From positions 1 to 46,707 of the forward strand of contig LXQK01000094.1 in the NCBI GenBank assembly GCA_001683905.1: a DNA stretch of 46,707 nucleotides, in the 5' to 3' direction. Every line of letters starts with the position of its first letter. The first letter of the stretch is position 1. A program made the translations under genes and the position numbers. The notes beneath the pieces were generated by a model, which was not told where the DNA came from, made no database searches, and was given only the letters and a program-made list of their open reading frames with translations. Source of the stretch: Marivirga sp. ANT-B6 (GTDB lineage Bacteria > Bacteroidota > Bacteroidia > Cytophagales > Cyclobacteriaceae). This document shows positions 6,940-27,182 of the stretch, in pieces.

Positions 6940-7164
6940 GAAGTTATCGAGTGATCGCTATTTATTTTTACTGGGCTGAATAGCTTCGAATCACTGACAT
7001 CATTCCTTATTTAAAATCAATCTAAAATCATCCTGATTTCTTAATAAAGCTCCGAATCAAATATCAGTGAATTAAAATGTGCTTAACAGATTGGTAACAC
7101 TAGAAATGTAAGTTTACAGTGTAAATAGAAACAATTTTTTTAATTAACAAACCAATCAAAAACC

Positions 7165-9042
7165 ATGAAAAAAATTTATCTTTTCTTTGTTTTGATATTA
7201 GCCGGAGCTAGCACTGGTTATTGTCAATTTTTTTTTCCTGTCGAAGTGGAGGCTGAATGGACTCCCACTACGGTGGTGATGCCGCCATCACCTTTGAAAT
7301 ACCAGGTCCTCTTTATCGGGCAGACCAACAAAGTACAAACAACCAGAACTTATGGGAATGCCCCCGGAGAAGCGCTTGCCAAGCAGTGGCATGATTTTAT
7401 TGGATTTACGCCTGATGATGATTCTGAAGATCTGGGCTGGGTAACCGTGAACCACGAAATGGTAAGTGCCAATGACAGCATCGGCGACGGTGGTGGAATG
7501 ACTGTATTTAAAGTAAGAAGAGATCCCGCAACCGATACCCTGATCATTGTGGATCAGACTTTGGCCGACGGCCGGTCTGGTAAATTTTTCAACATTGACT
7601 TCGTGAATACTGTCGGAGAAACCGGTATGAACTGCGGAGGTATCAGTTCGATTGTTGATGGAAGGATTTGGACTGCAGAAGAGTGGTTCAGAAGTAGCAA
7701 TGAATCCATAACCCCAGGTGTAAGAAACCAGTCTGAATGGACAATTTCTACTGACATACCCGGAGATTTTGCCGGTGCTTCTATTCCAAAGTACCAAAAC
7801 TTTAACTGGATGGTGGAAGTAGATCCAAGGGAAGCAAAAGCAATAAGAAAGCAGTATAACTGGGGACGACAAGGTTTCGAAGGGGCTATCATTATGCCTG
7901 ATAACAAAACCGTTTATACAGCCGAAGACAACACACCAGGTCTATGGTGCAAATTTGTTGCTGATACACCTGGTGACTTCACCAAAGGTAAAACTTATGT
8001 GTACAAGCATGATGCTACTGGATCAGATGGCCCCTGGGTAGAATTAAACAATAAGTCACTCGATGTAATGCTAAATATAAGAGAAGAAGCATTAAAGGTA
8101 GGTGCTACTATGTTTAATAGATTAGAATGGCCTGCAACAGACGGGGAGCGAATATTCGTGACTGAAACTGGAAGAGACAATCTCGGCAATCGCTTTAAGA
8201 ATGGAGCGGCCAAAGGCGGGGTATTAGATTACCATTGGGTTGAACCGGTGAAGGCAAGACACCCTCATATGGCCACTAAAACAGATGACCAAATTCTTGA
8301 TTTTGTTATGGCCGGATTTTTTAATGACTACTACGGTAGAGTATTAGAATTTGATCCTGCAACCGGTATCATGTCTACATTCCTTGAAGGTGGCCCTCAT
8401 TTGGAAGAGTCTCCCGAAGTCGGATCTTATCCTGACAAACATCTTTCGAATCCTGACGGTCTCAATATAATGAAGGTGAACGGACAATCTTTCATGGTGA
8501 TCCAGGAAGATCTTAATGGCTTATCGAAAGGAAGAATCCCTGCAGGTTATTCAAGACCTGTTTGTGAGATGTATCTGTTAGATATGAAAATCCAGAACCC
8601 TACCGTGAGCGACTTGGTAAGAATATCTACCACGCCAATGGGAGCAGAAATTACCGGTGCACAACCCACTCCTGACGGTAAAACGCTCATGGTTAACTCT
8701 CAACACCCTGACGGAAACCTTCCTTTCCCTTACAACAATTCTCTTACCTATGCGATCACAGGATGGGACGCAGCAATATCCGCGATTTCAAATAGTCAAG
8801 GTAAGTCAGTAGAAGTCGATGGCTTTAAAGTATGGCCAAACCCTGTATCCAGGGAATTGAAGTTCAACGAAGTAGTGGATGTAGCTATCTATGATTTGAC
8901 AGGAAAAAGATTAAAGGTTTCCAGAAATATAGAAATGATCGATGTGTCTGATTTAGTACCTGGCACTTATTTGTTAAAAACCTATAATGCAAGGACCAAT
9001 AAATCGAATAGTTCAAAGGTAATTATCGAAAGCGCTAATTAA
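7165..9042 (+). CDS. PhoX-family (DUF839) secreted protein with T9SS type A signal
   Basis: 625 residues. A signal peptide (about 1-20) is followed by a PhoX-type beta-propeller. Landmarks are an NHE motif near residue 97, MNCGG at 155-159 followed by WTAEEWF, GFEGAI near 237-242, and ETGRD at 334-338. PhoX enzymes are Ca/Fe-dependent phosphatases; whether this member hydrolyses phosphoesters is inferred only from family. From about residue 550 there is a T9SS type A sorting domain (VWPNPVSRELKF … DLVPGTYLLKTY), so it is exported and handled by a PorU-type sortase like the one encoded just upstream. The following peroxidase and CDF genes run in the same direction but are separated by a terminator-like hairpin. 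Confidence 0.85.
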   Translation: MKKIYLFFVLILAGASTGYCQFFFPVEVEAEWTPTTVVMPPSPLKYQVLFIGQTNKVQTTRTYGNAPGEALAKQWHDFIGFTPDDDSEDLGWVTVNHEMVSANDSIGDGGGMTVFKVRRDPATDTLIIVDQTLADGRSGKFFNIDFVNTVGETGMNCGGISSIVDGRIWTAEEWFRSSNESITPGVRNQSEWTISTDIPGDFAGASIPKYQNFNWMVEVDPREAKAIRKQYNWGRQGFEGAIIMPDNKTVYTAEDNTPGLWCKFVADTPGDFTKGKTYVYKHDATGSDGPWVELNNKSLDVMLNIREEALKVGATMFNRLEWPATDGERIFVTETGRDNLGNRFKNGAAKGGVLDYHWVEPVKARHPHMATKTDDQILDFVMAGFFNDYYGRVLEFDPATGIMSTFLEGGPHLEESPEVGSYPDKHLSNPDGLNIMKVNGQSFMVIQEDLNGLSKGRIPAGYSRPVCEMYLLDMKIQNPTVSDLVRISTTPMGAEITGAQPTPDGKTLMVNSQHPDGNLPFPYNNSLTYAITGWDAAISAISNSQGKSVEVDGFKVWPNPVSRELKFNEVVDVAIYDLTGKRLKVSRNIEMIDVSDLVPGTYLLKTYNARTNKSNSSKVIIESAN

Positions 9043-9052
9043 CCAGCCAGTA

Positions 9053-9083
9053 AAAACTACCGGGCAGCTTGTCCGGTAGTTTT
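9053..9083 (+). terminator. Rho-independent terminator after the PhoX gene
   Basis: A perfect 11-bp inverted repeat (arms 9053-9063 and 9073-9083, AAAACTACCGG / CCGGTAGTTTT) with a 9-nt loop, followed by a T-rich run to about 9096. It begins 10 nt after the PhoX stop codon. Leakage could still feed the downstream peroxidase gene. Confidence 0.8.
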
Positions 9084-9123
9084 CTTTTCATTTTTTGCGA
9101 TATCAATTTAAAATCAAATACGC

Positions 9124-11088
9124 ATGAGAAAAATCTACTTCCTGTTGCTTTCCCTAATCATTTTTCTACTCGTTGTCATCAATGCAGCTTTCATTGGCAA
9201 ACAAGTGTCAACATCATCTTCAGTTGCCTATACCATAGCTAAAAGCCATAATCTTAAATTAGAGGCATTTACGACCAGCCTTAGTAAGCTTGATCTTGCT
9301 ATAAAAAACCTTGAAGACAACAACGCTTCAACATCCAATCTTAAAGCGCAATACATTGCCACAAGACTAAAGTACAAGGAGATTGAGTATCTGGTGAGCT
9401 ATCTGGATCCGGAGTTTATCGAGGACTACATCAACGGCGCTCCACTACCGGGCCTGGAGAGAAATTCACCGTCGCTGAGTGTGTTGGAGCCTGAAGGATT
9501 TCAGGTAATGGAAGAGTTAATTTTCTCTGAAGAAGTATTTCACTCGAAAGTGGACCTCGCTGTCTATTCTGAACTTTTGGTTAGGAATGCAGCAACAATG
9601 GTAGGTTACCAAAAAAATATTTTCATAACTGATAGGCAGATCTTTGAGGCTGTTCGAAATCATTTGGTGCGCATTTTCACTCTCGGAGTTACCGGTTTTG
9701 ATTCTCCTGCAGCGCTTCAGTCCATTCCCGAAGCTGCTGTTTCCTTAAACGCAGCCCATGAGGCATTTAGTAAATATTACCCCCTCATCGAAAAACAGCA
9801 TAAAGCACTCTCCGATAGCTTAGCAATGAAATTTAATGAAGGTATCCGATACCTGCGGGACAACCAGGATTTTGATAGTTTTGACAGAATGCATTTCCTA
9901 AAAAACTTCATTAACCCATTGTATAAATTTATTCTGAAAGCACATCTGGCACTTGGGATTGAGACCTTGTATGAAACTTCGCCGTTGAATATGAAACATT
10001 CTGTTAACCTTTATGCGGAAGATCTTTTTGCCAATGATTTATTAAATCCTTTTTACTATACCGAGCTTTTGCCAAAAAACTATACTGATGAGCTTGTAAA
10101 CCTTGGCAGAACGCTTTTCTTTGACCCTATTTTATCTTCAAATAATCAGAGGGCCTGTGCTTCCTGCCACAATCCTGAAAGGGCTTTTACCGATGGACAG
10201 AAAAAAAGCCTGGCCTTCGACCACGAAGGAACTTTGACGCGAAATGCCCCGACGCTGATCAACGCGGTATATGCCGACCGGTATTTTTATGATCTCAGAA
10301 CAGATGTATTGGAAAATCAGATTGAACATGTACTGGTGGATAGAAAGGAATTACATACCAGTTATTTAGAAATTTTCGAAAAACTGAAGCAAAGTGAAGA
10401 GTATGTTGCACTATTTCAGGCAGCCTTTCCCGAATTTTCCAATTCGGAGCTTATTATGAAACACACCTTGTCTTCAGCGCTTTCTGCTTATGTCGTTTCG
10501 CTGTCAGGCTTCAATTCTCCCTTTGATCGATATGTGCGTGGGGAATCTGCGGAAATAGATCCTATGGTCATTTCAGGATTTAATCTTTTTATGGGCAAGG
10601 CTGCCTGTGGTACCTGCCACTTTGCTCCTGTTTTTAATGGTAGTGTTCCGCCTCTTTACCACGAATCAGAGACAGAAGTATTAGGTGTCCCGGAGATTGC
10701 CGGTGCGGCAAAGCCTGCAATAGATCCTGACCTGGGCCGCTATAAAGGTGTACTGAAGGAAGAAGCAGATATCTACAAACACTCATTTAAAACAACTACG
10801 GTCAGAAATGTAGCTTTGACAGCGCCATATATGCACAATGGCGTTTTTAGCACCCTGGAAGAAGTGGTTGATTTTTATAATAAAGGTGGTGGAATTGGAC
10901 TGGGTTTAGATGTACCCAATCAGACCCTGCCATCTGCCGCTTTAAACCTGGACGAGCTGGAAGTAAAGCAATTGATTGCCTTTATGCATGCGCTTACAGA
11001 TACAAGCAGTATGAACATAAAGCCAGCAAAGTTGCCTGCTTTCACTGATCAAAAGTTGAATGCTAGAATTATTGGAGGAGCTTACTGA
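9124..11088 (+). CDS. Di-haem cytochrome c peroxidase / MauG-family protein with N-terminal extension
   Basis: 654 residues with an N-terminal signal or anchor (about 5-25). Residues 30-320 are a mostly helical extension with no haem motif. From about 325 the di-haem peroxidase module begins. The first haem site is CASCH at 345-349 (LGRTLFFDPILSSN just before it), and the second is CGTCH at 495-499. The C-terminal APYMHNG motif is typical of the family. Such proteins reduce hydrogen peroxide with electrons from cytochrome c or carry out MauG-like oxidations in the periplasm. The usual length is 320-460, so the extension is large; it is seen in other Bacteroidota peroxidases and may be a separate helical domain. 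It lies 35 nt downstream of the terminator and its stop codon overlaps the next start (TGATG). Confidence 0.85.
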   Translation: MRKIYFLLLSLIIFLLVVINAAFIGKQVSTSSSVAYTIAKSHNLKLEAFTTSLSKLDLAIKNLEDNNASTSNLKAQYIATRLKYKEIEYLVSYLDPEFIEDYINGAPLPGLERNSPSLSVLEPEGFQVMEELIFSEEVFHSKVDLAVYSELLVRNAATMVGYQKNIFITDRQIFEAVRNHLVRIFTLGVTGFDSPAALQSIPEAAVSLNAAHEAFSKYYPLIEKQHKALSDSLAMKFNEGIRYLRDNQDFDSFDRMHFLKNFINPLYKFILKAHLALGIETLYETSPLNMKHSVNLYAEDLFANDLLNPFYYTELLPKNYTDELVNLGRTLFFDPILSSNNQRACASCHNPERAFTDGQKKSLAFDHEGTLTRNAPTLINAVYADRYFYDLRTDVLENQIEHVLVDRKELHTSYLEIFEKLKQSEEYVALFQAAFPEFSNSELIMKHTLSSALSAYVVSLSGFNSPFDRYVRGESAEIDPMVISGFNLFMGKAACGTCHFAPVFNGSVPPLYHESETEVLGVPEIAGAAKPAIDPDLGRYKGVLKEEADIYKHSFKTTTVRNVALTAPYMHNGVFSTLEEVVDFYNKGGGIGLGLDVPNQTLPSAALNLDELEVKQLIAFMHALTDTSSMNIKPAKLPAFTDQKLNARIIGGAY

Positions 11089-12276: not shown

Positions 12277-13130
12277 TTATATGCTTTGTCTTCTGTTTGA
12301 ATTATCCCAAGCCGCATCTTCTCTTTGGTCAGAAAATTTAACATCCTCTGTAAGCAGTTTTTCCTGTGTTTCAATTTCCTCCCGTACAGATTCCACATAG
12401 CTCTCCTTTTTATGGCGCATTTCCCCGAGTTTTTGCAAGGCTTCTTCATCATACTGAATAAATTCTGCAGCTTTTCTGCTTGCTGTATATTTTCTGTGGC
12501 CTAAGCTTTGCAATACGTCTACTCCTAGATTAACAGAAGTATGTACGGATTCCCGAGAAATATGGGTAATGGCTAAATCAATTAATTCATACGCATCCAT
12601 CCTGTTTTTAGCTCTGATAAACAATTGAAGGTGTGGGAAATGCTTTTTCACTTCATCCACTAATTGATAGATGCGCTCCGGTGAATCAATAGCCGAGATC
12701 AAAATTTTGGCTTTTGTTGCCCCGGCAGATTCCAGTAAATCTATTCGGGTGGCATCACCATAGAATACTTTGAAACCCATCTTTCTGAGTAGATCAACAC
12801 GCTCACTGTTATTGTCTAATATAGTGGCAGATACTCCGTTTGCCCGTAAAAACCTGGCAATTGTGCTCCTAATGGCCCAAACCTGCAATGATTACGCTTT
12901 CTTCCTCCTCAATATCATCAGCCTGTTTAGGTTCAGATTCGTTGGTGCCAAAGCGTGGGGAATTTATTCTTTCGTTTAAAAAGAGAAAGATCAGGGAAAG
13001 AATCATGCTGATGGTGGTGACTGCCATTAAAAAATCAAGTGTTTCTGTATCGATAATCTCCAGTTGTCTGGTGGAAGCCAATAAAACAAAAGCGAATTCG
13101 CCTACCTGCATTGCAGATAGCTTATGGCGG
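12277..13130 (-). pseudogene. kefC: Truncated, frameshifted kefC (K+/H+ antiporter) remnant
   Basis: Two minus-strand frames join into the C-terminal half of a KefC/KefB-type potassium:proton antiporter. The upstream one (to a stop at 12869) carries the last antiporter helices (MQVGEFAFVLLA … FLMAVTTISMILSLIFLF) and the start of the RCK domain (VIIAGLGH). The downstream one carries the rest of the NAD-binding RCK domain (FLRANGVSATILDN, KVFYGDATRIDLLESAGA) and the acidic tail. The join lies near 12870-12890, inside the glycine-rich nucleotide loop, where a frameshift disrupts the frame. The roughly 300 N-terminal residues of the membrane domain are missing; homologous sequence starts near 13130 without a start codon. 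It cannot make a functional antiporter. Confidence 0.82.
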
Positions 13131-14068: not shown

Positions 14069-14605
14069 ATGAAACATCTTAACCCTTTTTATTTTTTCGT
14101 GGTCATATTGTTTGTCATTGTTTTTTCTGGCTGTACCAAAAAATATACTGCATCATTTAACTATATGCCTGCAAAAACATATACGGCCGAGAGGAAAGCA
14201 CCCGTTGATGAACCACAGGCGCCTGCCGATAAAACCCTTTCCGCAAACACGGTAGAAACAGCTGTAGCTGATGCAACCACTTCTGCCGACGAGAAATTAA
14301 AGCGCATTGAAGAAAAAGTTACGGAGAACAATGCCTTAAAAGCGCCAGCCAAAAAATTAAATGTTGTGCAGAAGCTGGTTCTGAAGAAAGTATTAAAGAA
14401 AGCCGAAAAGGATTATAAAAACAGTTTGAAGGAAATCAAAGCGGCGGATGATTCAGATCAAACTAAGGATATAAACTCCAATATTCGACTAGGATTAATT
14501 CTCATAGTAGCGGGTGTAATTGTTGGTATATTCGTTCCAGTTGTTGGTGGAATAGTGGGCATCATTGGTCTTGTCTTCTTATTGATCGGACTGCTGGAGT
14601 TATAG
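14069..14605 (+). CDS. Lipoprotein with C-terminal glycine-rich membrane hairpin
   Basis: 178 residues. A lipoprotein signal peptide ends in the lipobox FSGC (Cys22). A low-complexity Ala/Pro/Thr/Lys linker (about 30-110) and a Lys-rich helix (VVQKLVLKKVLKKAEKDYKN) follow. The end is a hydrophobic pair of helices rich in Gly and Val (about 142-178). The same architecture occurs in many short Bacteroidota lipoproteins of unknown role; the terminal helices could insert into or peripherally bind a membrane. It stands alone, with no operon partner on its strand, and is convergent with the alanine racemase operon across a shared hairpin. Confidence 0.7.
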   Translation: MKHLNPFYFFVVILFVIVFSGCTKKYTASFNYMPAKTYTAERKAPVDEPQAPADKTLSANTVETAVADATTSADEKLKRIEEKVTENNALKAPAKKLNVVQKLVLKKVLKKAEKDYKNSLKEIKAADDSDQTKDINSNIRLGLILIVAGVIVGIFVPVVGGIVGIIGLVFLLIGLLEL

Positions 14606-14707
14606 CATGCATTGAAAGGAAAGACGCTACCGATGTGTGGCAGATTGCGAGCAAACAGTAGAAGATATTAGTTATAGCATGCATTGAAAGGAAAGACGCT
14701 ACCGATG
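14598..14707 (+). repeat. 38-bp exact direct repeat spanning a terminator arm
   Basis: The 38 bases at 14598-14635 recur exactly at 14670-14707, an offset of 72 bp. The first copy includes the stop codon of the lipoprotein gene. Only the second copy is followed by the complementary right arm that makes a terminator hairpin; the first copy is followed by unrelated sequence. It looks like a short tandem duplication of the gene end in which only one hairpin survived. Confidence 0.9.
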
Positions 14708-14718
14708 GCGTCTTTCCT
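14689..14718. terminator. Hairpin terminator between convergent genes
   Basis: Inverted repeat of 11 bp, AGGAAAGACGC (14689-14699) and GCGTCTTTCCT (14708-14718), with an 8-nt loop. It begins about 85 nt after the lipoprotein stop codon and abuts the stop codon of alr on the other strand. It therefore probably serves both transcripts, although neither side has a long T-run. Confidence 0.6.
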
Positions 14719-15873
14719 CTATTCTACAATTACCCTCGGAATATTGTGCGGTAGCCTGGTAAGTAGCTCATAGTTAGGCTGATTGGTTAATTCTTCAAAA
14801 GACGCCACGCTGATTTCTTCATTTTTTTGTTGTCCTATTAACACCACTTCGTCGCCTCTGTTCACGTCTTCATTGCCATTTAGATTAACCGACATGAGGT
14901 TCATATTTACAATTCCAATCACATCGGCGCGCTTACCATTAATCAGTACCGTACCTGTATTGCTGAGGTTTCTGCTAAAGCCATACGCATAACCCACGGG
15001 TATCAATCCGATGGTCATATCAGTAGCAGCCATATAAGAGCTACCATAGCCTATAAATTCCCCTTTTTTGACAAACTTTAATGACATTACCTGGCTTTTC
15101 CATTTGATGAGCCTCTTTAAAGGATCATCGGTGACCGTAGGGTTTAGCGCCTTAAAGTTCTCGTATATTTCCTTACTTGGCCAAAAGCCGTACATTACAA
15201 TGCCCAGCCTCACCATGTCCATGCGTGTCTCGGGATAACATATGGAAGCAGCAGAGCAGGCCGTATGGTGGATCTCGGCCTTTATTCCCATCGATGCAAG
15301 CCGCTGCTTTAATTGGGTAAATCTTACGATCTGTTTGGAGACCCGTTGGTGATTTGCTGTACTTTCCGCCCCGGCATAGTGGGTGCATAGCCCTCTAATC
15401 TGTATCCAGTTCACGTTTTCAAGAATGGTTTTACAGAGTGAATCGAGCTCCGCTTCTTTAAAGCCGGTTCTATTCATCCCCGTCTCCAGTTCCAGATGAA
15501 TGACTGCTTTTTGATCATTTTTTTGTGCTGCCTGAATGACTGCGTCTAGTCTTTCCTGGTCAAAAATATAAAGCTCAATGCCCTTTGCTATCGCCCATGC
15601 CAGGTGTTCATCGGCAATCATGCCCATCAGCATCACTGTGGATTCCGGTTTCTTTACTTGCAGGATATGGTGCGCTTCTTCGGCACTGAAAACAGAAAAA
15701 TGGTCGATCCCCAGGCTTTCAGCCAGAGGTACATAATATTGAATCCCATGGCCATAGGCATTGCCCTTTACGGTGGCAGAGATCCGAATATCGTTGCCAA
15801 TTAGGTTGCGTAGAAATTGTATGTTTTGCGCTAAGGCTGATTTACTGATCTCTATGATAGACGTATGAAACAC
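14719..15873 (-). CDS. alr: Alanine racemase
   Basis: 384 residues, full length for the family. The N-terminal TIM barrel carries the PLP lysine Lys36 in ATVKGNAYGHG. The C-terminal beta domain carries the second catalytic base, a Tyr in IGYGSSY near residue 271. The product interconverts L- and D-alanine in the cytosol, normally for peptidoglycan. It is the last gene of the five-gene minus-strand operon, 45 nt after the M20 amidohydrolase, so it may serve amino-acid catabolism here as well as or instead of wall synthesis. A second, wall-dedicated copy may exist elsewhere (Bacteroidota often have MurF-Alr fusions); that cannot be seen here. Substrate may be broader than alanine. Confidence 0.88.
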   Translation of the reverse strand: MFHTSIIEISKSALAQNIQFLRNLIGNDIRISATVKGNAYGHGIQYYVPLAESLGIDHFSVFSAEEAHHILQVKKPESTVMLMGMIADEHLAWAIAKGIELYIFDQERLDAVIQAAQKNDQKAVIHLELETGMNRTGFKEAELDSLCKTILENVNWIQIRGLCTHYAGAESTANHQRVSKQIVRFTQLKQRLASMGIKAEIHHTACSAASICYPETRMDMVRLGIVMYGFWPSKEIYENFKALNPTVTDDPLKRLIKWKSQVMSLKFVKKGEFIGYGSSYMAATDMTIGLIPVGYAYGFSRNLSNTGTVLINGKRADVIGIVNMNLMSVNLNGNEDVNRGDEVVLIGQQKNEEISVASFEELTNQPNYELLTRLPHNIPRVIVE

Positions 15874-15918
15874 GTATGATAAGTTTATGATGAAATAAAG
15901 GTGTAAACCCTATTGCAC

Positions 15919-17073
15919 CTATTCATTGTTTAGTATAATCTGAAAAGCTTCGAAGAATACCGCCGCCCCATGTTCAATGATTTCATCAGGAAAGTCATAG
16001 TCTTCGTGATGTAAGGCTGGTGAGTTTTCTCCAGCGCCTATACCAAACAGTGCAGCGGTGCATCGGTTGGAAAAATGCCCAAAATCTTCCGACCATTTAA
16101 AGGGGGTTTTGATGTACTGGTATGGAATATTCCTACTTTTAACCGCTTTTACGAGATAAGCTACCGCTTTCGGATGATTTTCGGTGGAAGGGAAAACTTC
16201 AGACCAGGAAACCTCCGATGATAAATGGTATTTCGCAGCTACTTGATTGATGAAAGCCAGTGCATCTGCTGTCATCGTCTCCATGTCTTGGTTGGTGAAA
16301 GACCGAAAGGTAGCCCGCAAGGTGGCATGAGCCGGGCTAACGCCAAAAGCTATTTCGCCCAAAATTGCATGAACTACAGTGATCAGGCTAAAACCATGGC
16401 AATTTCTTTTGTAAGCATTGCCATCACTTAAATACTGTATGATTTCAGCCAGTGCCGGTGAAGGACTTATACCATTTTCAGGTTCAGCAGCATGCGATGT
16501 CTTCCCCGTCAACTGTAAGGTCAACCCTTTGGAGGCGGCGGCAAAAACTGCCTTTTTTATAACGATTTCTCCTTTTTTGAAGCCTGGAAGGTTATGAAGG
16601 GCGAATGCATAGTCAGGTTGAAGGCGCTTAAAAAGCGGATCTTCAATCACCCTTAGAGCCCCCTCCCCAGTCTCTTCCGCGGGTTGAAACAAAAGGATCG
16701 CCTTACCCACAGTTGGCTTATCTTTAAAAACCTTTTGCGCTAGCCTGCACATGATAGCCATGTGGCCGTCGTGCCCACACAAATGGGCGATACCCATATA
16801 GGCTGAGCGATGCTCAAATGTATTATGTTCTTGTATTGGCAAGGCATCGAGTTCACACCGAAAAAGTACAGCTGGGCCAGGTTTTCCACTGCCATAGATT
16901 ACTGCCAGACCCGTTTCACCAATGGGATAGATAATTTCGTCAGGAGGGTAGGCCTTTAAAAACGCCAGGATGCGTAAGGGGGTTTCTTTCTCCATGCCTG
17001 ATAGTTCAGGATGCTGGTGAAGTTCCTTTCGCAAAACTTTTACAGCCTCTGCATGATCAATAAGTTCTGCCAT
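15919..17073 (-). CDS. M20 family amidohydrolase (N-acyl amino acid hydrolase type)
   Basis: 384 residues with the M20D landmarks: HQHPELSG at 19-26, Asp76 in ELDALPI, CGHDGHM at 99-105, the catalytic pair Glu130-Glu131 in PAEETGEGA, then the dimerisation domain containing TSHAAEPENG. A late HHEDYDFPDE supplies the remaining metal-site residues. Relatives deacylate N-acyl amino acids, indole-acetyl amino acids or N-acetyl-diaminopimelate. No signal peptide, so it is cytosolic. Its start overlaps the stop of the racemase-family gene by 1 nt, which implies coupled translation. In this operon it probably releases free amino acids from imported conjugates. The true substrate cannot be read from the sequence. 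Confidence 0.87.
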   Translation of the reverse strand: MAELIDHAEAVKVLRKELHQHPELSGMEKETPLRILAFLKAYPPDEIIYPIGETGLAVIYGSGKPGPAVLFRCELDALPIQEHNTFEHRSAYMGIAHLCGHDGHMAIMCRLAQKVFKDKPTVGKAILLFQPAEETGEGALRVIEDPLFKRLQPDYAFALHNLPGFKKGEIVIKKAVFAAASKGLTLQLTGKTSHAAEPENGISPSPALAEIIQYLSDGNAYKRNCHGFSLITVVHAILGEIAFGVSPAHATLRATFRSFTNQDMETMTADALAFINQVAAKYHLSSEVSWSEVFPSTENHPKAVAYLVKAVKSRNIPYQYIKTPFKWSEDFGHFSNRCTAALFGIGAGENSPALHHEDYDFPDEIIEHGAAVFFEAFQIILNNE

Positions 17074-18164
17074 CAGGTCATTAGTTTTTCTGCATATTCA
17101 ACCCGTTTTTCAATATATTGAGAATTGAGTATTTGTAAAGCACCCATATACTTCAATTTAAATCTTACCAGATCGCCAACGGTAAGGTTATGCTCATTCT
17201 GGCCCAAATCAATGACCAACATATCGGAGCTTGCTCCAACAATCTCAAAATCCATAGCATGGGGAAGCAGGTACTTTGGATCGATGTCCAACAAACCGAT
17301 ATCAAGTATAGCCCGATAGGATTCCTGGCCGTACAATGAGTCGTCAATCTGTAGCGTTTCTCCCTGTGGGTTTGCTGCAAGGGTGCCGTTAGGTAATTTG
17401 GGCTTCTTACTGATCTCTATGATCTCGGTGAATAGTTCGAAGACATCCGGTTTCATTCCTTCAATTACAGCATCTTCAAATAAATTTAAGCCGAAAAACA
17501 GCGTTTCTCCAATTCTGAAGTGATTCACACCCTTAGGTATTTGTTTATTAATAGCCAGCGCAAGGGTTACGGATGTGCCACCTGAAATCCACGGTATCTT
17601 TTTGTTGAACTTCAGCTCTACGATTTGCTTATACAGGCATAGCTGGATCAGTTTATCCTGAGAGGGCATCACTCCATGGAGACAATTTAAATTTGTGCCG
17701 ATGCCAATAATTTCAATATTTGGCAGCTCGAATACTTTTTCATAAAAAGCTACCAAATGATCGCCCATGATACCTTCCCGCAGGTCACCCGTTTCGATCA
17801 TGATAATAACCTTATGTTTTTTTTGTTGCTTTACAGCCTCTACAGAAAGAAGCTTAATCGTGTAGAACTCAGTATTCATGCTCACATCAGCATATTTGAT
17901 AATGTTGCTGATACTTCTTTTCGCTGGTGGCTTGATATAAACGGTTTGGATATCGGGGTTGATTTCTTTGATCGTTCTCAAATTACTGACGCGGGAATCG
18001 TGGATTTCCTTAACGCCCAGGTCAATCAGTTCCTTCAGGTAAGTAACGTTGCCACATAACAATTTAGAAACCACACCCCAATGAAGATCATTTTCTTCAA
18101 AGAGCGTATTTAGAAATTGGAAATTGTGTTTTAGATTATCTTTATATAATTTTAAAAATGCCAT
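17073..18164 (-). CDS. Alanine/ornithine racemase-family PLP enzyme
   Basis: 363 residues, a fold-type III PLP protein. The PLP lysine is Lys34 in VVSKLLCGN, as in the ornithine-racemase branch. Other family-like stretches are VIIMIETGDLREGI, GIGTNLNCLHG, SGGTSVTLALA and FRIGETLFFG. It therefore differs in type from the Alr at the end of the same operon. Ornithine racemases of clostridia feed D-ornithine into degradation, but no such degradation genes are present here, so the substrate is open (ornithine, lysine, serine or another polar amino acid). It starts 2 nt after the acetyltransferase gene and overlaps the M20 gene by 1 nt. Confidence 0.83.
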   Translation of the reverse strand: MAFLKLYKDNLKHNFQFLNTLFEENDLHWGVVSKLLCGNVTYLKELIDLGVKEIHDSRVSNLRTIKEINPDIQTVYIKPPAKRSISNIIKYADVSMNTEFYTIKLLSVEAVKQQKKHKVIIMIETGDLREGIMGDHLVAFYEKVFELPNIEIIGIGTNLNCLHGVMPSQDKLIQLCLYKQIVELKFNKKIPWISGGTSVTLALAINKQIPKGVNHFRIGETLFFGLNLFEDAVIEGMKPDVFELFTEIIEISKKPKLPNGTLAANPQGETLQIDDSLYGQESYRAILDIGLLDIDPKYLLPHAMDFEIVGASSDMLVIDLGQNEHNLTVGDLVRFKLKYMGALQILNSQYIEKRVEYAEKLMT

Positions 18165-18166
18165 TT

Positions 18167-18604
18167 TTATTTTTTTAGCCTCATTTCAAGGTATTTATTA
18201 GTAAACCCCAGCTTTTCGTATAGCCCTTTTGCCGGATTATCTGGTTCAACATGAAGTGCAATATCACCTTGCGTTGATTTGATGGCTTCCTGCATAAGTT
18301 GCTTGCCTACGCCTTTACCACGTTGGCTTTTATCTACCGCTATATAAACTAAAATATTCTCGGGGATATAACCCTTCATATTGGTATGGTTAATCACAAC
18401 TGCCCCAACAATCTTACCAGCATCCCTTGCTGTAAGTACAAATCCACCCTGATGGCTCTTGTTTCCTAACGCATAGTCCAGGCACTTGAGAATATCTTCT
18501 TTAGTGTCTCCATATTGGTCAAGGTGTTTCACCAGAAAATCCGCAACTTCATTTTTTTCTAATGTAGTAGCTTCGTTTTTTGCTGATATCTTTAGTATGT
18601 CCAT
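18167..18604 (-). CDS. GNAT family N-acetyltransferase
   Basis: 145 residues, a single GNAT domain. The acetyl-CoA binding motif A is IAVDKSQRGKGVGKQLM, preceded by the strand GKIVGAVVINH and followed by LYEKLGFTNKYLEMRL. Members transfer an acetyl group from acetyl-CoA to an amine, often an amino acid. It lies between the symporter (18 nt upstream) and the racemase (2 nt downstream). A reasonable inference is that it acetylates an amino acid or amine handled by this operon, the reverse of what the M20 enzyme would do; detoxification of a D-amino acid by N-acetylation is one possibility. No direct evidence of substrate. Confidence 0.8.
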   Translation of the reverse strand: MDILKISAKNEATTLEKNEVADFLVKHLDQYGDTKEDILKCLDYALGNKSHQGGFVLTARDAGKIVGAVVINHTNMKGYIPENILVYIAVDKSQRGKGVGKQLMQEAIKSTQGDIALHVEPDNPAKGLYEKLGFTNKYLEMRLKK

Positions 18605-18622
18605 CTCTTTTAAACAAGTTTT

Positions 18623-20068
18623 TTAATGTAATGATTTTAAATTTGTAGTTTTTAAACCCGATATACCAATAAAGGTGATAAATGAAGCCGAAATACCGAA
18701 TATGTTGGCATCCAAATCCAGGGGGAGCCGCCAGCCGCCCAATGTGAGAAGAACGGTTACCATACCTCCCACGAGCATTGCAGAAAAGGCTGCCGTTGCG
18801 TTCGTCTTTCCAAAAAATAAAGCCGCTATAATAGGTACAAACAATCCGGAAACCATAAATGCGTAGGAGTAGAGCATTAGGTCCAATACCTGCGTCATAT
18901 AACTTGCCAGTAATAAAGCGAGGGCACCCACAACCAGTGTTACCAGTTGTGATAAGCGTAGAAAATACTGTTCACTTTTCTGTGCAGGAATGTATCGTTG
19001 CAATAGATCGGACATAATATTACCTGAAGCTGCCATTAGGCAGCTGTCCGCAGTTGAAAGTATCGCCGAAAAATAGGCGGATAACATTAACCCCATCAGA
19101 CCCACCGGGAGGACCTTACTAAGTAGCATTGGAAGTCCCGTTTCAGGGTCGGCGCCCGCTATGCCATCTACGCCAAGGGATACAAACATCCCCTGCTCGG
19201 CGGCGACACGAGCGATTAACCCTAAGGCAACACCCATAAAAGCCATTATAGGCCATTCAAAGAGCCCTGCAATAAACCACGCCTTCTTTGCCGTCTTTTC
19301 ATCTTTACAGGCAAAAATCCTTTGGTAGAGTGTCATCCCGACAAACCAAATGGGGATAATCGTAACGCCCCAATTGACAAGGTCCTGCCACCTGATATTG
19401 CCAAGACTAAAAAATGAGGCCGGCAGTGTGCTCCTGATTACATCATAGCCTCCAACAGCATGATAGGAGATGGGAATGCCTATAAAGATCAAGCCGCCCA
19501 TTAGGATGATCCATTGGATGGTATCGGTGTAAATTACCGCTTTGATACCACCCATGACAGTATAGATGACAGCTAATACGCCCATGCAAATTAATGCTGT
19601 CGTTACATCCAAACCAGGAATGGTGCCGGAGGCAAGCTTTGCACCGGCCAATATTTGCGAACTGGTGAACCCTGTATATCCGATCGCTGAAATAATGGCT
19701 GCCAGGATAGCTACTTTGCCGTTGTAGAAGTGTCCGAAAATCTGTGGCAAGGTATAAAAATGAGCGAAAGCCTTATTTTGTTTTACCACAGGGATCAGGA
19801 ATACGGCGGCTAACCATGCCCCGATTAGCCCTGTAAATAACATCCACGATCCGGAGATTCCCATCACAAATCCCAGGCCTCCCAAGCCAATGGAGAATCC
19901 ACCACCGACATCAGTTGCTACAACGGAAAGGCCAATGTGGCCACTCCCCATGTTTCTGCCGCCAACGTAATAATCTTCTGTGCCTTCATTTTTTCTCAAA
20001 AAGTAGATGCCTACACCAAGCATAGCTGCCATGTAGATAATGAAGATTAAAATATCGATAAAGTGCAT
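18623..20068 (-). CDS. Sodium:solute symporter (SSS family)
   Basis: 481 residues with about 13 membrane helices. Family landmarks are the start IDILIFIIYMAAMLGVGIYF, the YYVGGRNMG loop, VVATDVGGGFSIG in TM2, GGIKAVIYTDTIQW, and TADSCLMAASGNI in TM9 with sodium-site Ser/Thr residues. Members use the Na+ gradient to import sugars, amino acids, carboxylates or vitamins. It is the first gene of the operon, so uptake probably supplies the substrate of the downstream hydrolase and racemases. The substrate cannot be told from the family. ATG 20068 begins right at the first helix. Confidence 0.87.
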   Translation of the reverse strand: MHFIDILIFIIYMAAMLGVGIYFLRKNEGTEDYYVGGRNMGSGHIGLSVVATDVGGGFSIGLGGLGFVMGISGSWMLFTGLIGAWLAAVFLIPVVKQNKAFAHFYTLPQIFGHFYNGKVAILAAIISAIGYTGFTSSQILAGAKLASGTIPGLDVTTALICMGVLAVIYTVMGGIKAVIYTDTIQWIILMGGLIFIGIPISYHAVGGYDVIRSTLPASFFSLGNIRWQDLVNWGVTIIPIWFVGMTLYQRIFACKDEKTAKKAWFIAGLFEWPIMAFMGVALGLIARVAAEQGMFVSLGVDGIAGADPETGLPMLLSKVLPVGLMGLMLSAYFSAILSTADSCLMAASGNIMSDLLQRYIPAQKSEQYFLRLSQLVTLVVGALALLLASYMTQVLDLMLYSYAFMVSGLFVPIIAALFFGKTNATAAFSAMLVGGMVTVLLTLGGWRLPLDLDANIFGISASFITFIGISGLKTTNLKSLH

Positions 20069-20090
20069 GAAGGAGGCGCTAGTACGATCC

Positions 20091-20098
20091 CAAAAATA
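20091..20098 (-). promoter_or_regulatory. Candidate -7 box of the symporter-racemase operon
   Basis: On the minus strand TATTTTTG fits the Bacteroidota consensus TAnnTTTG, 22 nt before the symporter start. A good TTTG-type upstream box is not seen at the right distance, so support is partial. Confidence 0.35.
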
Positions 20099-20124: not shown

Positions 20125-20157
20125 AAAAGGCCTAAAATGTGAAAATTAGGGCCTTTT
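20125..20157 (-). terminator. Second terminator-like hairpin between sdhB and the symporter operon
   Basis: Inverted repeat AAAAGGCC/GGCCTTTT (arms 20125-20132 and 20150-20157) with a 17-nt loop. On the minus strand the stem is followed by a T-rich run. It would catch read-through from sdhB and insulate the operon promoter just downstream. Confidence 0.55.
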
Positions 20158-23101: not shown

Positions 23102-23791
23102 TCAGCCCAGGCTTTTTATTAAGAAGAATATAGGCATAGCAGCAAATACAGCAGGTACTATGATGGCAAAAGCATACCCAGCTTTTTCTATGGCAGGGGT
23201 ATATTTTCTGTGCTTCATTCCGAGCGTCTGAAAGGCGCTCTTGAAGCCATGCCATAAGTGGAAGGCGAGAAAAACCATCATCACAATATATAAAATCGAG
23301 TACCACCAGATAGAAAAAGTGCTGGCGACGAGTGTATACAAATCTTTTACTCTACCTAAATCACCATAATCTACATAAGCAACATCACCAAATTTCATCT
23401 CATATAGAAATGTTCTCAGGTGAATAACGAGAAAGACAAATATGATCGTTCCTAAGATTCCCATATTTCTTGCTGGCCATTCGGTATTGGCGCCCGGTTT
23501 GGTAACCTTATACTCAACTGGCCTGGCTTTTCTATTAATGCGGGTGAGTAAAATCGAATAAATGATATGCAAGATAAAACTTGCTGCAGTCAATATCCTT
23601 AAGACCTGTACAATCGGGCTGGTGGTCATAAATTCTGCATAAAAGTTGTAAGCCTGCCCTCCGTCATCTTTGAAAAGCAATAAATTACCTGAAACGTGGC
23701 CGAGTAAAAAAATAATCAGGAACAAGCCTGTGCTTGCCATAACAAATTTCTTTCCCAATGAACTTGATATTGCTTTAGTAAACCAACTCAT
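23102..23791 (-). CDS. sdhC: Succinate dehydrogenase cytochrome b subunit (type B)
   Basis: 229 residues with five membrane helices, the single-anchor arrangement of type-B succinate:quinone oxidoreductases that hold two b haems. Candidate haem histidines are in LLGHVSGNLL, SFILHIIYSI, VFLVIHLRTF and LAFHLWHGFK. It anchors SdhAB to the membrane and reduces the quinone. It is the first gene of sdhCAB, 40 nt downstream of a good candidate promoter. Confidence 0.92.
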   Translation of the reverse strand: MSWFTKAISSSLGKKFVMASTGLFLIIFLLGHVSGNLLLFKDDGGQAYNFYAEFMTTSPIVQVLRILTAASFILHIIYSILLTRINRKARPVEYKVTKPGANTEWPARNMGILGTIIFVFLVIHLRTFLYEMKFGDVAYVDYGDLGRVKDLYTLVASTFSIWWYSILYIVMMVFLAFHLWHGFKSAFQTLGMKHRKYTPAIEKAGYAFAIIVPAVFAAMPIFFLIKSLG

Positions 23792-23830
23792 TCGTTAATA
23801 TAAATTTAAAAGTTTATGATGATGTCCTGC

Positions 23831-23862
23831 CAAAGTTAACTCACGATTAAATACCAAGCAAT
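23831..23862 (-). promoter_or_regulatory. Promoter of sdhCAB
   Basis: On the minus strand ATTG (23862-23859), a 20-nt spacer, then TAACTTTG (23838-23831). This matches the Bacteroidota sigma-A form TTTG-N19-TAnnTTTG except for one base of the upstream box. The -7 box is 40 nt from the sdhC start. Confidence 0.6.
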
Positions 23863-23881
23863 TGAGAAGGCAATTTTGATA

Positions 23882-23903
23882 CATTCTAAATAGATATAGA
23901 ATG
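23882..23903. promoter_or_regulatory. Inverted repeat upstream of sdhC, possible operator
   Basis: CATTCTA and TAGAATG (arms 23882-23888 and 23897-23903) separated by 8 nt, just upstream of the -33 box of the sdh promoter. The position suits an activator or repressor site; no regulator can be named. Confidence 0.35.
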
Positions 23904-24244
23904 ACACTAGTTTTAAACTGATTCAATAATTTTTTGTTTAGTTTTAAAATTTTTTTTTTAAACAAAATTGATGCAAAAAGCACAGGATATAATATGTTTC
24001 AGTTATTAAAATATAAAGAGGAAAAATATGTTTATTATACATCAAAGTGCTCCGTTTTCTTACATCCCTAAGTGCGCTTGAAATAAAATTTCGAATTTTC
24101 ATTTACCTAATAGGATCTTAAGGCATATATAGGAACCAGCATCTCATTTTGAGTTAAATAAAGTAGGTTGTGAATGGGTTGTATCGGTAGAAATCATCCT
24201 GGCGGCTTGTTTTTACGTACATGGACCTTATAAACTTTTTATAT

Positions 24245-24252
24245 TAAATTTG
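24245..24252 (+). promoter_or_regulatory. Candidate -7 box of the Fn3 gliding-associated gene
   Basis: TAAATTTG fits TAnnTTTG, 35 nt before the ATG at 24288. No matching upstream TTTG box is seen at the usual distance. Confidence 0.35.
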
Positions 24253-24287
24253 TTCGGTGGATATTATTGAATTGTGGCTGATATGAC

Positions 24288-27182
24288 ATGAAAATATTAC
24301 ATAAATTATTGCTTTCTATTTTCTCTCTTCTTTTGTTCCAAAGCCACTTTGCTTTGGGCACGCACATCCGTGCCGGTGAAATCATTGCAGTTCCTAACTC
24401 ATCTTCTAATCCTCTTAGCTATAAGTTTATTATTGTTGGCTATACTGATACGGGGTCAAATGTTCAATTTGGAAACGGTGAAATCAACTTTGGAGACGGA
24501 AGTGATCCTATCAATCTGGAAACGGAAAAAGTATTTTCTTTTAAGCGAGAGCTCGGAGATCAGATTGCTCTGAATGAATTTGTCATAGAGCATACGTTTC
24601 CATCACCGGGCAGATATTTGATTACTTTCAGAGAGTTTAACAGAAATGAAGGGGTGTTAAATATGGCGGGATCTGTAAACACACCATTTTATATAGAAAC
24701 CGAAATAATCATAGATCCTTTCGTGAGGTTCAATCGGTCACCTTTGCTGCTGGTTCCTCCAATCGACCGTGCTGCTACAGGTGTAGTCTTTATTCATAAT
24801 CCAGGCGCTTATGACCCTGATGGCGATAGCTTATCTTACAAGCTTGTGGTTTGTAAGCAGGACCGCGATACGCCCGTAAACAGCTATAAGTTTCCTAATC
24901 ATCCTGCGTTGTACCAGGGGATGGATTACAACACCTCCAATCAGGCAGGAACGGGGCCGCCAACTTTCACCTTAGATTCTATTACCGGAGATCTTGTTTG
25001 GGACGCACCGGGTGTAGCCGGTGAATACAATATGGCCTTTATTGTAGAAGAATGGCGCAAACTAAATGGAGAATTTCGTCGCATAGGATATGTGACCCGC
25101 GATATGCAGGTGATTGTGCAGGAAAGCGACAACAAGCCACCGGAGCTTCTGATGCCTAAAGACACTTGTATTGTAGCAGGGAGTATATTGGAGGAGATCA
25201 TCCGTGCCGACGACCCTGATGGGGATGATGTTCGGATAGAATCTTTTGGTGGGGTTTATGAGATAAACTCCCCTGCCAGCTTTACGCCTAACCCTCCGAT
25301 ATTTCAGCCCGTTATTGCAGCGCTTGCTTTCCGTTGGCCTACCAATGGTAGACATGTGCGTGAGCGGCCTTACGAAGTGCAGTTCAAGGCCACCGACAAG
25401 CCTCCGCTTGGCCCTGCGCTAAGCGATATCCAGACCTGGCGTATTACGGTGGTTGGCCCGGCACCGGAGAATTTAAGTGCCGAAGTTTTACCTGGCAGGA
25501 ATATCCAGTTGAACTGGAACCCCTACATCTACCGTGCACAGGCCGACCGGATGCAGGTATGGCGGAAGACAGGTAGCTTCTCATTTATACCAGACAACTG
25601 CCAGACGGGTATTCCCGAGGGTGCAGGTTATGAGTTGGTTGGTGAGATCAATGTTACCGACGCCTCATTTACCGATACCAATGGCGGGGAAGGCTTTGCT
25701 GCCGGTGCCACTTATTGTTACCGTTTGGTGGCAGTATGGCCATTTCCGGGTGGTGGAGAAAGCTATGCATCAGAAGAAGCCTGCGTACGGCTGGCCATTG
25801 ATGTGCCGGTACTTACCCGTGTGAGTATAGAAGAAACGAGCGAAAATGCAGGAGAGATAGATGTACGATGGAGTCCACCGCTGGAGATAGATCCGGCGCA
25901 GTACCCACCGCCTTATACCTATGAGTTGTTGCGAGGCACAGGCTTTTCTGGCGGCGGATGGAGTCCACCGCTGGAGATAGATCCGGCGCAGTACCCACCG
26001 CCTTATACCTATGAGTTGTTGCGAGGCACAGGGTTTGGTGGTGGCGAACTCACCAGCGTCACGACAACCACGGACACAGCATTTAGAGATACGGGTTTGA
26101 ATACAGCCGGTACAGCCTACTATTATGTGGTACGGCTATTTGATGGTAATGCCCAGGAAGCAGGCGACTCACCTCCGGCGTCGAGCGTACGGCTGGAAGC
26201 AGCCTCGCTGCTTGGGGCAATAGAGCTCAGTTGGGAGGCGGCTGTTCCGTGGAGCAATAGCGACCAGCGTTACCCCTACCACCGCATCTACCGCGACGAC
26301 GGACAGGGCGGTGCCATGACGCTGATAGATAGTGTGAATGTAACCACCAATGGATTTACCTACCGTGACGAAGGGCAACACAATGGTGTTTCCTTGCTGG
26401 ACACCCAACTGTATTGTTATATCGTGGAGACATCAGGGAGTTATAACAATCCTTTGCTGGCCGAGCCCTTGCTGAACAAGTCGCAACGGGTATGTGCCCA
26501 GCCCAACGATACGGTGCCCCCTTGCACACCACCGGGCCTTGGCTTCGACCTGGGTGACCTGGAAGATTGTGCCGCTTTTTTTGAAGGCCGGACAGGTTCA
26601 GCGTGTAATATCAGTACGTATGCCAATACCCTGCTATGGGAAGAAGAGGTAGGCGAAGGCTGTGACGATGACATTCGTTTTTACCGGGTGTATTACTCAC
26701 GTAGTGGTGTGGAAGGCAGCTTTGAGGTGGTATCGCCACCCAACCTGTCCCAGCAGATGTTTGTGCATGGCAATCTGTCATCTTTTGCAGGATGTTACAA
26801 GATCACCTCTGTAGATAGATCGGGCAATGAGAGTGAATTTAGCGAGACGATATGCCGGGAGAACTGCCCGTCGTACAGGCTGCCCAATATCATCACCCCG
26901 GGCAATCTGGATGGGAAGAATGACGTGTTCAGGCCCTTTGACTGCCCACAGTTTGTGCTCTCTGTGCAATTCAGGGTGTATAACCGATGGGGCAAGGAAG
27001 TGTATAGCTATAGCTCAGACAATGGCGAAAATACGATATTTATCAACTGGGACGGAAGAAGTAATTCTGGTGAGGAGCTGGCCAGCGGCGTTTATTATTA
27101 TGTAGCTGATGTGACCTATGATATGCTTGACCCTGCACAGGCCCAGCAGGTAATCAAAGGGTGGGTACATGTGGTGCGGTAG
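24288..27182 (+). CDS. Secreted Fn3-containing protein with T9SS type B (gliding motility-associated) C-terminal domain
   Basis: 964 residues. The signal peptide is followed by THIRAGEI, typical of gliding-associated surface proteins. A PKD/cadherin-like N-terminal half (about 25-370, with DPDGD calcium-site-like motifs at two places) leads to several Fn3-type domains (about 375-850). The last about 100 residues are the T9SS type B sorting domain (LPNIITPGNLDGKNDVF, then VYNRWGKEVY and SGVYYYVADV). It is therefore exported through the T9SS and may stay on the surface or be released. Around residues 527-586 a 30-residue unit is duplicated (see the repeat entry). The 3' half has noticeably higher GC than the first third. 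It is transcribed alone. Confidence 0.87.
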   Translation: MKILHKLLLSIFSLLLFQSHFALGTHIRAGEIIAVPNSSSNPLSYKFIIVGYTDTGSNVQFGNGEINFGDGSDPINLETEKVFSFKRELGDQIALNEFVIEHTFPSPGRYLITFREFNRNEGVLNMAGSVNTPFYIETEIIIDPFVRFNRSPLLLVPPIDRAATGVVFIHNPGAYDPDGDSLSYKLVVCKQDRDTPVNSYKFPNHPALYQGMDYNTSNQAGTGPPTFTLDSITGDLVWDAPGVAGEYNMAFIVEEWRKLNGEFRRIGYVTRDMQVIVQESDNKPPELLMPKDTCIVAGSILEEIIRADDPDGDDVRIESFGGVYEINSPASFTPNPPIFQPVIAALAFRWPTNGRHVRERPYEVQFKATDKPPLGPALSDIQTWRITVVGPAPENLSAEVLPGRNIQLNWNPYIYRAQADRMQVWRKTGSFSFIPDNCQTGIPEGAGYELVGEINVTDASFTDTNGGEGFAAGATYCYRLVAVWPFPGGGESYASEEACVRLAIDVPVLTRVSIEETSENAGEIDVRWSPPLEIDPAQYPPPYTYELLRGTGFSGGGWSPPLEIDPAQYPPPYTYELLRGTGFGGGELTSVTTTTDTAFRDTGLNTAGTAYYYVVRLFDGNAQEAGDSPPASSVRLEAASLLGAIELSWEAAVPWSNSDQRYPYHRIYRDDGQGGAMTLIDSVNVTTNGFTYRDEGQHNGVSLLDTQLYCYIVETSGSYNNPLLAEPLLNKSQRVCAQPNDTVPPCTPPGLGFDLGDLEDCAAFFEGRTGSACNISTYANTLLWEEEVGEGCDDDIRFYRVYYSRSGVEGSFEVVSPPNLSQQMFVHGNLSSFAGCYKITSVDRSGNESEFSETICRENCPSYRLPNIITPGNLDGKNDVFRPFDCPQFVLSVQFRVYNRWGKEVYSYSSDNGENTIFINWDGRSNSGEELASGVYYYVADVTYDMLDPAQAQQVIKGWVHVVR
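25867..26032 (+). repeat. 90-bp in-frame tandem duplication inside the Fn3 protein gene
   Basis: Bases 25867-25942 and 25957-26032 are identical over 76 bp. The period is 90 bp, exactly 30 codons. Each unit encodes WSPPLEIDPAQYPPPYTYEL followed by LRGTGF and a Gly-rich turn. Perfect identity at synonymous sites means a recent duplication, or slippage during replication or assembly. Confidence 0.95.

Follow-up and report, generated by a model that had tools for sequence, protein, structure and literature searches.

Why would a bacterium keep two different racemases in one row of genes, together with an acetyltransferase, a deacylase and a sodium symporter? The question is raised by a 46,707-nt stretch of DNA from Marivirga sp. 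ANT-B6 (contig LXQK01000094.1 of assembly GCA_001683905.1, positions 1 to 46,707; hereafter the window), which lies on contig C250 of a draft genome of 3.6 Mb that is 83% complete. Five open reading frames (ORFs), all on the minus strand and running from 20068 down to 14719, encode in this order a symporter of the SSS family, a GNAT N-acetyltransferase, a pyridoxal 5'-phosphate (PLP) enzyme resembling ornithine racemase (Orr-like), an M20 amidohydrolase and an alanine-racemase-like (Alr-like) PLP enzyme. The intergenic gaps of 18, 2, -1 and 45 nt given in a preliminary description of the window are exactly those that we recomputed from the ORF coordinates, and its five family assignments agree with our own calls, made by Pfam and NCBIfam profile searches. 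No description of the five-gene cluster was found in the literature searched, in keeping with the earlier view that the pathway is uncharacterised. We conclude that both enantiomers of a single amino acid are probably processed by the cluster.

Used as a query, the Orr-like protein matched 56 named loci, 25 of 59 close relatives and 72 of 395 genomes sampled across Bacteroidota, and most of the strong matches fall in a GNAT-linked clade. Neighbourhoods of 12-20 kb were taken around 60 Orr-like loci; the non-redundant set, with duplicates and four outgroup loci removed, comprises 107 loci. These were recruited through the Orr-like gene, and the resulting fractions describe its neighbourhood and not the reverse: the GNAT gene is nearby in 105, the symporter in 90, M20 in 30, the Alr-like gene in 25 and all of them in 23. 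The 23 complete sets occur in five orders, namely that of the window (SSS-GNAT-ORR-M20-ALR), SSS-GNAT-M20-ALR-ORR, GNAT-SSS-M20-ALR-ORR, GNAT-ORR-SSS-M20-ALR and M20-ALR-GNAT-SSS-ORR. An accidental neighbourhood is rejected by these complete clusters in five orders together with the nested distribution of the genes. Because gene content is kept while order is rearranged, a joint function is indicated, and the comparison supports the view that the five genes form one conserved functional set.

The five-gene operon of the preliminary description is real in the window, yet it is one arrangement of several: the conserved units are two separable modules, (SSS)-GNAT-Orr-like and M20-Alr-like. Where M20 and Alr lie away from the Orr-like gene, they often adjoin each other elsewhere in the genome (L177, L178, L182 and L186; L and G numbers are our labels for loci and genomes). 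Window-type Alr genes score at least 400 bits against below 250 bits for cell-wall Alr. Counted with their second subtype, they were found in 43 of the 60 genomes that have the Orr-like gene and in none of the 51 that lack it, and window-type M20 genes in 46 of 60 versus 6 of 51; Fisher's tests gave 3e-17 (Alr) and 4e-12 (M20), descriptive values that ignore phylogeny. This co-distribution and the complete clusters support the earlier view that the five genes belong together. A GNAT-M20 pair in G056 (L197) and an SSS-M20 pair in G345 (L210), both in genomes where the Orr-like gene sits apart, tie the parts of the cluster together further. Loci L157-L160 hold the GNAT and Orr-like genes only, with universal stress protein (Usp) and AraC neighbours and no transporter, and the GNAT plus Orr-like pair is the minimal conserved unit. 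A plasmid of Persicobacter sp. JZB09 (L242) carries both forms: a full five-gene cluster at 5394-10628 (minus strand) and, at a distance of 12.7 kb, another GNAT-Orr-like pair at 23349-25202 (plus strand).

The two PLP enzymes and their partners

The term "ornithine-racemase-type" used earlier for the third gene does not hold as a statement of substrate. Against the ornithine racemase model NF040742 the protein scores 305 bits and fails the curated cut-off of 480. It does belong to the PLP fold-III alanine-racemase superfamily, having the Alr fold, the PLP lysine (Lys34) and the substrate/PLP arginines R129 and R217, which correspond to R136 and R219 in Alr, all three invariant in relatives. 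Its AlphaFold model, built with 35 relatives in the alignment, has a predicted local distance difference test (pLDDT) score of 92, and the best folds returned by Foldseek were the VanTG serine racemase and alanine, broad-spectrum and lysine racemases, at template-modelling (TM) scores of about 0.75; a sequence search for related solved structures gave spurious repeat matches only. In a midpoint-rooted FastTree tree of the Orr family, with no formal test of the clade, the GNAT-linked copies all group together in a single clade, separate from the DUF1611-linked, aminomutase-linked and other copies. Five positions set this clade sharply off from the other groups: Y76 stands where they have L, K78 where they have R, D288 in place of A/G, L292 in place of Q and M315 in place of H. 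The Gln and His are kept in all 10 Orr-family members compared from outside the clade, where our enzyme has L292 and M315; among 37 clade members, the His-equivalent position is M in 35 and I in two. Genes for ornithine 4,5-aminomutase are present at a sister-lineage locus (L175), and none were found in the window or in the GNAT-linked loci. A true ornithine racemase is therefore rejected as a classification on the basis of the sub-cut-off score, the separate clade and the replaced Gln and His. Public annotation labels the family "alanine/ornithine racemase", and for the GNAT-linked clade the substrate in this label is unsupported by our sequence tests.

The Alr-like enzyme passes its own model (TIGR00492, 294 bits against a cut-off of 168), with catalytic K36 and Y276 invariant. 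It is a paralogue of a MurF-Alr fusion encoded on contig C249 of the same genome. This fusion could supply D-Ala to the cell wall, so that the Alr-like enzyme would be dispensable there; given the separate MurF-Alr, a cell-wall alanine racemase is an unlikely identity for the last gene. When aligned with MurF-Alr and with structure 4y2w, the VCMD motif is replaced by VNMN throughout the subfamily. In the Orr-like enzyme, M315 aligns with the D of the same CMD motif. The corresponding region of alanine racemase forms part of the substrate entry of the partner subunit. The altered residues at this place suggest a new specificity in both enzymes. Alr genes of this kind occur in other settings as well. 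A second paralogue, 42-47% identical to that of the window, is found at L187, L188, L189, L191-L194 and L213, where it comes third, behind the genes of an L-amino-acid-ligase-like ATP-grasp protein and of a protein of about 660 aa with no Pfam or PDB match, and at L211 (G028) the window-type Alr gene is broken by an insertion of about 1.6 kb that carries a 510-aa ORF.

The remaining three proteins are clear as to family. The M20D hydrolase passes TIGR01891 (199 bits against a cut-off of 154), its metal ligands (CGHDGH, EE, H160 and H355) are invariant in 25 relatives, and its nearest structures are YxeP and plant homologues of the indole-3-acetic acid (IAA)-amino acid hydrolase. The GNAT protein keeps the acetyl-CoA loop RGKGVGK and has 29 invariant columns across 41 relatives; its AlphaFold model (pLDDT 95) returned generic GNAT matches in a fold search, and there is a weak match to the EctA model. 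SSS transporters usually move single small solutes. The symporter scores 174.6 bits against TIGR00813 (cut-off 184) and 148 bits against the PutP model (cut-off 515), and its substrate is not readable from structure matches, the best of which, vSGLT, is uninformative.

Proposed pathway and alternatives

In PLP racemases, the alpha-amino group of the substrate is bound in an external aldimine (PMC8142540). This chemistry requires that amine to be free, so that an N-alpha-acetyl amino acid is not an expected substrate of either racemase; racemisation should therefore precede acetylation or follow deacetylation, or the acetyl group should sit on the side chain. The racemisation of an N-acetylated intermediate, as envisaged in the preliminary description, is unlikely for this reason, while the opposed chemistry of GNAT and M20 that it pointed out stands in outline, as a known logic around a racemase. 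In the scheme that we propose, the symporter, going by its family, would import the compound with Na+, and the Orr-like enzyme, going by fold and family, would interconvert its D- and L-forms as the free amine. The GNAT enzyme would then acetylate one enantiomer, or a side-chain amine, with acetyl-CoA, which would draw the racemic mixture one way and hold the product separate from the metabolism of cell wall and protein. Where present, M20 would take the acetyl group off again, and the Alr-like racemase would finish the conversion to a form that the cell can use.

That the cluster is such a module, editing the stereochemistry of one amino acid or a few related ones and N-acetylating them, seems to us close to an even call, if slightly short of one. 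Four points weigh against it. The co-distribution rests on models made from linked genes and on genomes that share ancestry; genomes with only the GNAT and Orr-like genes make import and deacetylation non-essential parts; the generic fold matches of the GNAT model point to no substrate; and, with its Gln and His lost, the Orr-like clade can only be presumed to racemise. A more specific version is doubtful: an undescribed pathway in which an Orr-derived PLP enzyme of new specificity and an enantiomer-specific GNAT would make an N-acetyl-D or side-chain-acetyl amino acid for storage, protection or signalling, and a detachable M20-Alr module would return it to the L pool.

Other uses of the same chemistry can be envisaged. 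The cluster might recycle peptidoglycan or non-canonical D-amino acids, salvaging D-amino acids or small cell-wall peptides: an M23-type peptidase, in some lineages, would cut the peptide, M20 and GNAT would handle the acyl group and the racemases would restore the L pool. In Balneolia an M23-family gene does lie between the Orr-like and M20 genes, and at L177, L178, L182 and L186 (Cyclobacteriaceae) one directly precedes M20-Alr; its product looks cytoplasmic, with no obvious signal sequence and with the motifs HxGxD, YGHL and HLH intact, and at L174 a DUF1611-linked racemase is followed by a gene resembling M15 D-Ala-D-Ala dipeptidases. However, most loci, the window included, have no peptidase, M23 genes are common in genomes that lack the cluster too, and the usual cargo of SSS transporters, single small solutes, speaks against this reading; we consider recycling unlikely. 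The wider distribution of the family also rejects M23 as an obligatory member of the cluster. The cluster-linked M23 proteins (L038, L144-L148, L177, L178, L182 and L186) are related to part of the PRK06148 model (1015 positions).

Still less probable is a role in compatible solutes or storage, in which GNAT would acetylate the side-chain amine of a diamino acid (of the ornithine, lysine or diaminobutyrate type, perhaps the D-enantiomer) to give an osmolyte, M20 would free the compound and the symporter would recapture leaked solute, the alpha-amine staying free for the PLP racemases throughout. The relatedness to Orr fits this idea, as do the weak EctA match of GNAT and a sub-threshold match of M20 to the N-acetyl-diaminobutyrate deacetylase model DoeB2 (170 bits, cut-off 550), and carriers such as Cyclobacterium, Balneolia, Belliella, Indibacter and Persicobacter are often marine or from saline lakes; but the DoeB2 and EctA matches are far under their cut-offs, relatives without the cluster are usually marine too and no osmotic regulator was seen. 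We give a slightly lower place again, and a very low probability, to detoxification, whereby GNAT would neutralise a harmful D- or non-protein amino acid and the Orr-like enzyme would turn part of it into the harmless enantiomer. In its favour, GNAT and the Orr-like gene make up the smallest conserved unit, seen in 105 of the 107 loci, and some copies have no transporter, M20 or Alr and adjoin a universal stress protein (L157), yet a symporter in 90 loci argues for wanted import, and M20 would reverse the neutralisation.

For the stereochemistry-editing module, the two-module architecture, being conserved, supplies concrete gene pairs for assay, and about one in five of the sampled Bacteroidota genomes has a match to the Orr-like protein. 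In the sea, resistant organic matter has D-amino acids as an important constituent (PMC12363236). An unrecognised D-amino-acid route, if true, would matter for carbon and nitrogen turnover.

Locus boundaries and neighbouring features

The features of the unit are listed in Table 1. Upstream of the symporter gene and on the same strand lies sdhCAB, separated from it by a hairpin that is likely the sdhCAB terminator. Cotranscription with sdhCAB was considered, given that sdh adjoins the cluster in about 50 loci, and rejected, since the hairpin intervenes in the window and the cluster occurs without sdh in other families. At the other end, the strong hairpin is probably a terminator that also serves the convergent gene at 14069-14605. 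The preliminary description had placed the limit of the operon at 20098, 30 nt upstream of the symporter start, a position that coincides with the TATTTTTG box. By its position alone, this box is suggestive of a promoter of the five-gene unit; the window holds 53 such boxes where about 50 are expected by chance, so there is no excess.

Table 1. Genes and candidate signals of the five-gene unit (window coordinates).
Feature	Position	Strand	Evidence
SSS-family Na+/solute symporter, 481 aa, first gene	18623..20068	-	PF00474, 174.5 bits
GNAT N-acetyltransferase, 145 aa	18167..18604	-	PF13508/PF00583
Orr-like PLP fold-III enzyme, 363 aa	17073..18164	-	PF01168; NF040742 below cut-off
M20D amidohydrolase (N-acyl amino-acid deacylase type), 384 aa	15919..17073	-	PF01546; TIGR01891
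Alanine-racemase-like PLP enzyme, 384 aa, GTG start	14719..15873	-	PF01168 + PF00842 + TIGR00492
Bacteroidota -7-like promoter box, TATTTTTG	20091..20098	-	22 nt upstream of SSS start
Hairpin with a T-rich tract behind it, in the sdhB-SSS gap	20125..20157	-	z-score -2.68
Strong hairpin (13 bp) closing the five-gene unit	14687..14720	-	-21.7 kcal/mol, z-score -5.58

Some further features of the surroundings were recorded. A perfect 38-nt direct repeat (14598-14635 and 14670-14707, 72 nt apart) lies at the end of the convergent gene; its second copy forms one arm of the strong hairpin, the first being a truncated duplicate. A potassium transport gene of the Kef/TrkA type at 12277-13111 (minus strand) is apparently split by a frameshift, ORF 13111-12869 ending in ...VIIAGLGH and the overlapping ORF 12888-12277 having the TrkA_N domain; the split could be an assembly error. 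At 24288-27182 (plus strand), a large protein has a type IX secretion C-terminal domain and a near-perfect tandem duplication (WSPPLEIDPAQYPPPYTYELLRGTGF).

Comparison with known systems

In a sister lineage of the Orr family (Vibrio, Ruegeria and Bacteroidota), the racemase gene adjoins a DUF1611 gene, mostly overlapping it. DUF1611 is the family of DgcN, an N-acetyltransferase in D-glutamate use, and D-Glu is converted to L-Glu via DgcN-DgcA (PMC10845958). Window-type GNAT was absent from the tested genomes with an Orr gene of the DUF1611 or aminomutase lineage (G019, G035, G400 and G212). One racemase family thus pairs with two unrelated acetyltransferase families, because the partner is GNAT in the window clade and DUF1611 in the sister lineages, and by analogy this pairing lends support to the proposed scheme. 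The DgcN-DgcA system of marine bacteria likewise couples an N-acetyltransferase to the racemisation of D-amino acids, although the window has a GNAT and neither DUF1611 nor a DgcA-type enzyme in the cluster. Overlapping DUF1611-racemase pairs also occur on plasmids of Vibrio and Ruegeria (L236, L237 and L240), and the pair has hflC and hflK on the opposite strand, at a distance of a few kb, in V. parahaemolyticus and Ruegeria. On a Salmonella Infantis plasmid (L239), an alanine racemase, an APC permease, an Orr-like enzyme and a second permease stand together, with a sigma-54 activator alongside.

Clostridial Orr, which works with ornithine 4,5-aminomutase, is of the same PLP family, and the window enzyme is about 35% identical to aminomutase-linked copies; it differs in scoring below the NF040742 cut-off, in its separate clade, in having no aminomutase neighbours and in its replaced Gln and His. 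With Alr, DadX and MurF-Alr the last gene shares a passing TIGR00492 score and the catalytic Lys and Tyr, while it is a paralogue beside the MurF-Alr fusion and has VNMN for VCMD. The YxeP-type pathways of B. subtilis resemble the cluster in having an M20D hydrolase and a GNAT in one operon. In these N-acetylation/deacetylation pathways an oxidative step lies between the two and no PLP racemase is known, whereas the window has PLP racemases.

The N-succinylamino acid racemase (NSAR) pathway of Geobacillus kaustophilus, reportedly described by Sakai et al. in 2006 (Biochemistry 45:4455), is said to turn D- into L-amino acids by the successive action of a GNAT acyltransferase, an enolase-superfamily racemase working on the N-acyl compound and an M20 deacylase. 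It has the GNAT and M20 that stand in one operon in the window, and a racemase; what distinguishes the window is its two PLP fold-III enzymes and its dedicated SSS symporter. No enolase-superfamily N-acylamino-acid racemase is among the five genes, and the MR_MLE_C matches in the genome sit on other contigs and are generic family matches only. Because the racemase of that pathway is enolase-type, the cluster is not a member of it and would at most work like it, with the PLP racemases taking the place of the enolase-type racemase and acting before acetylation or after deacetylation. The cluster reads as analogous to the GNAT/NSAR/M20 or DgcN/DgcA systems, and looks like a new version of the known pathways of D-to-L conversion.

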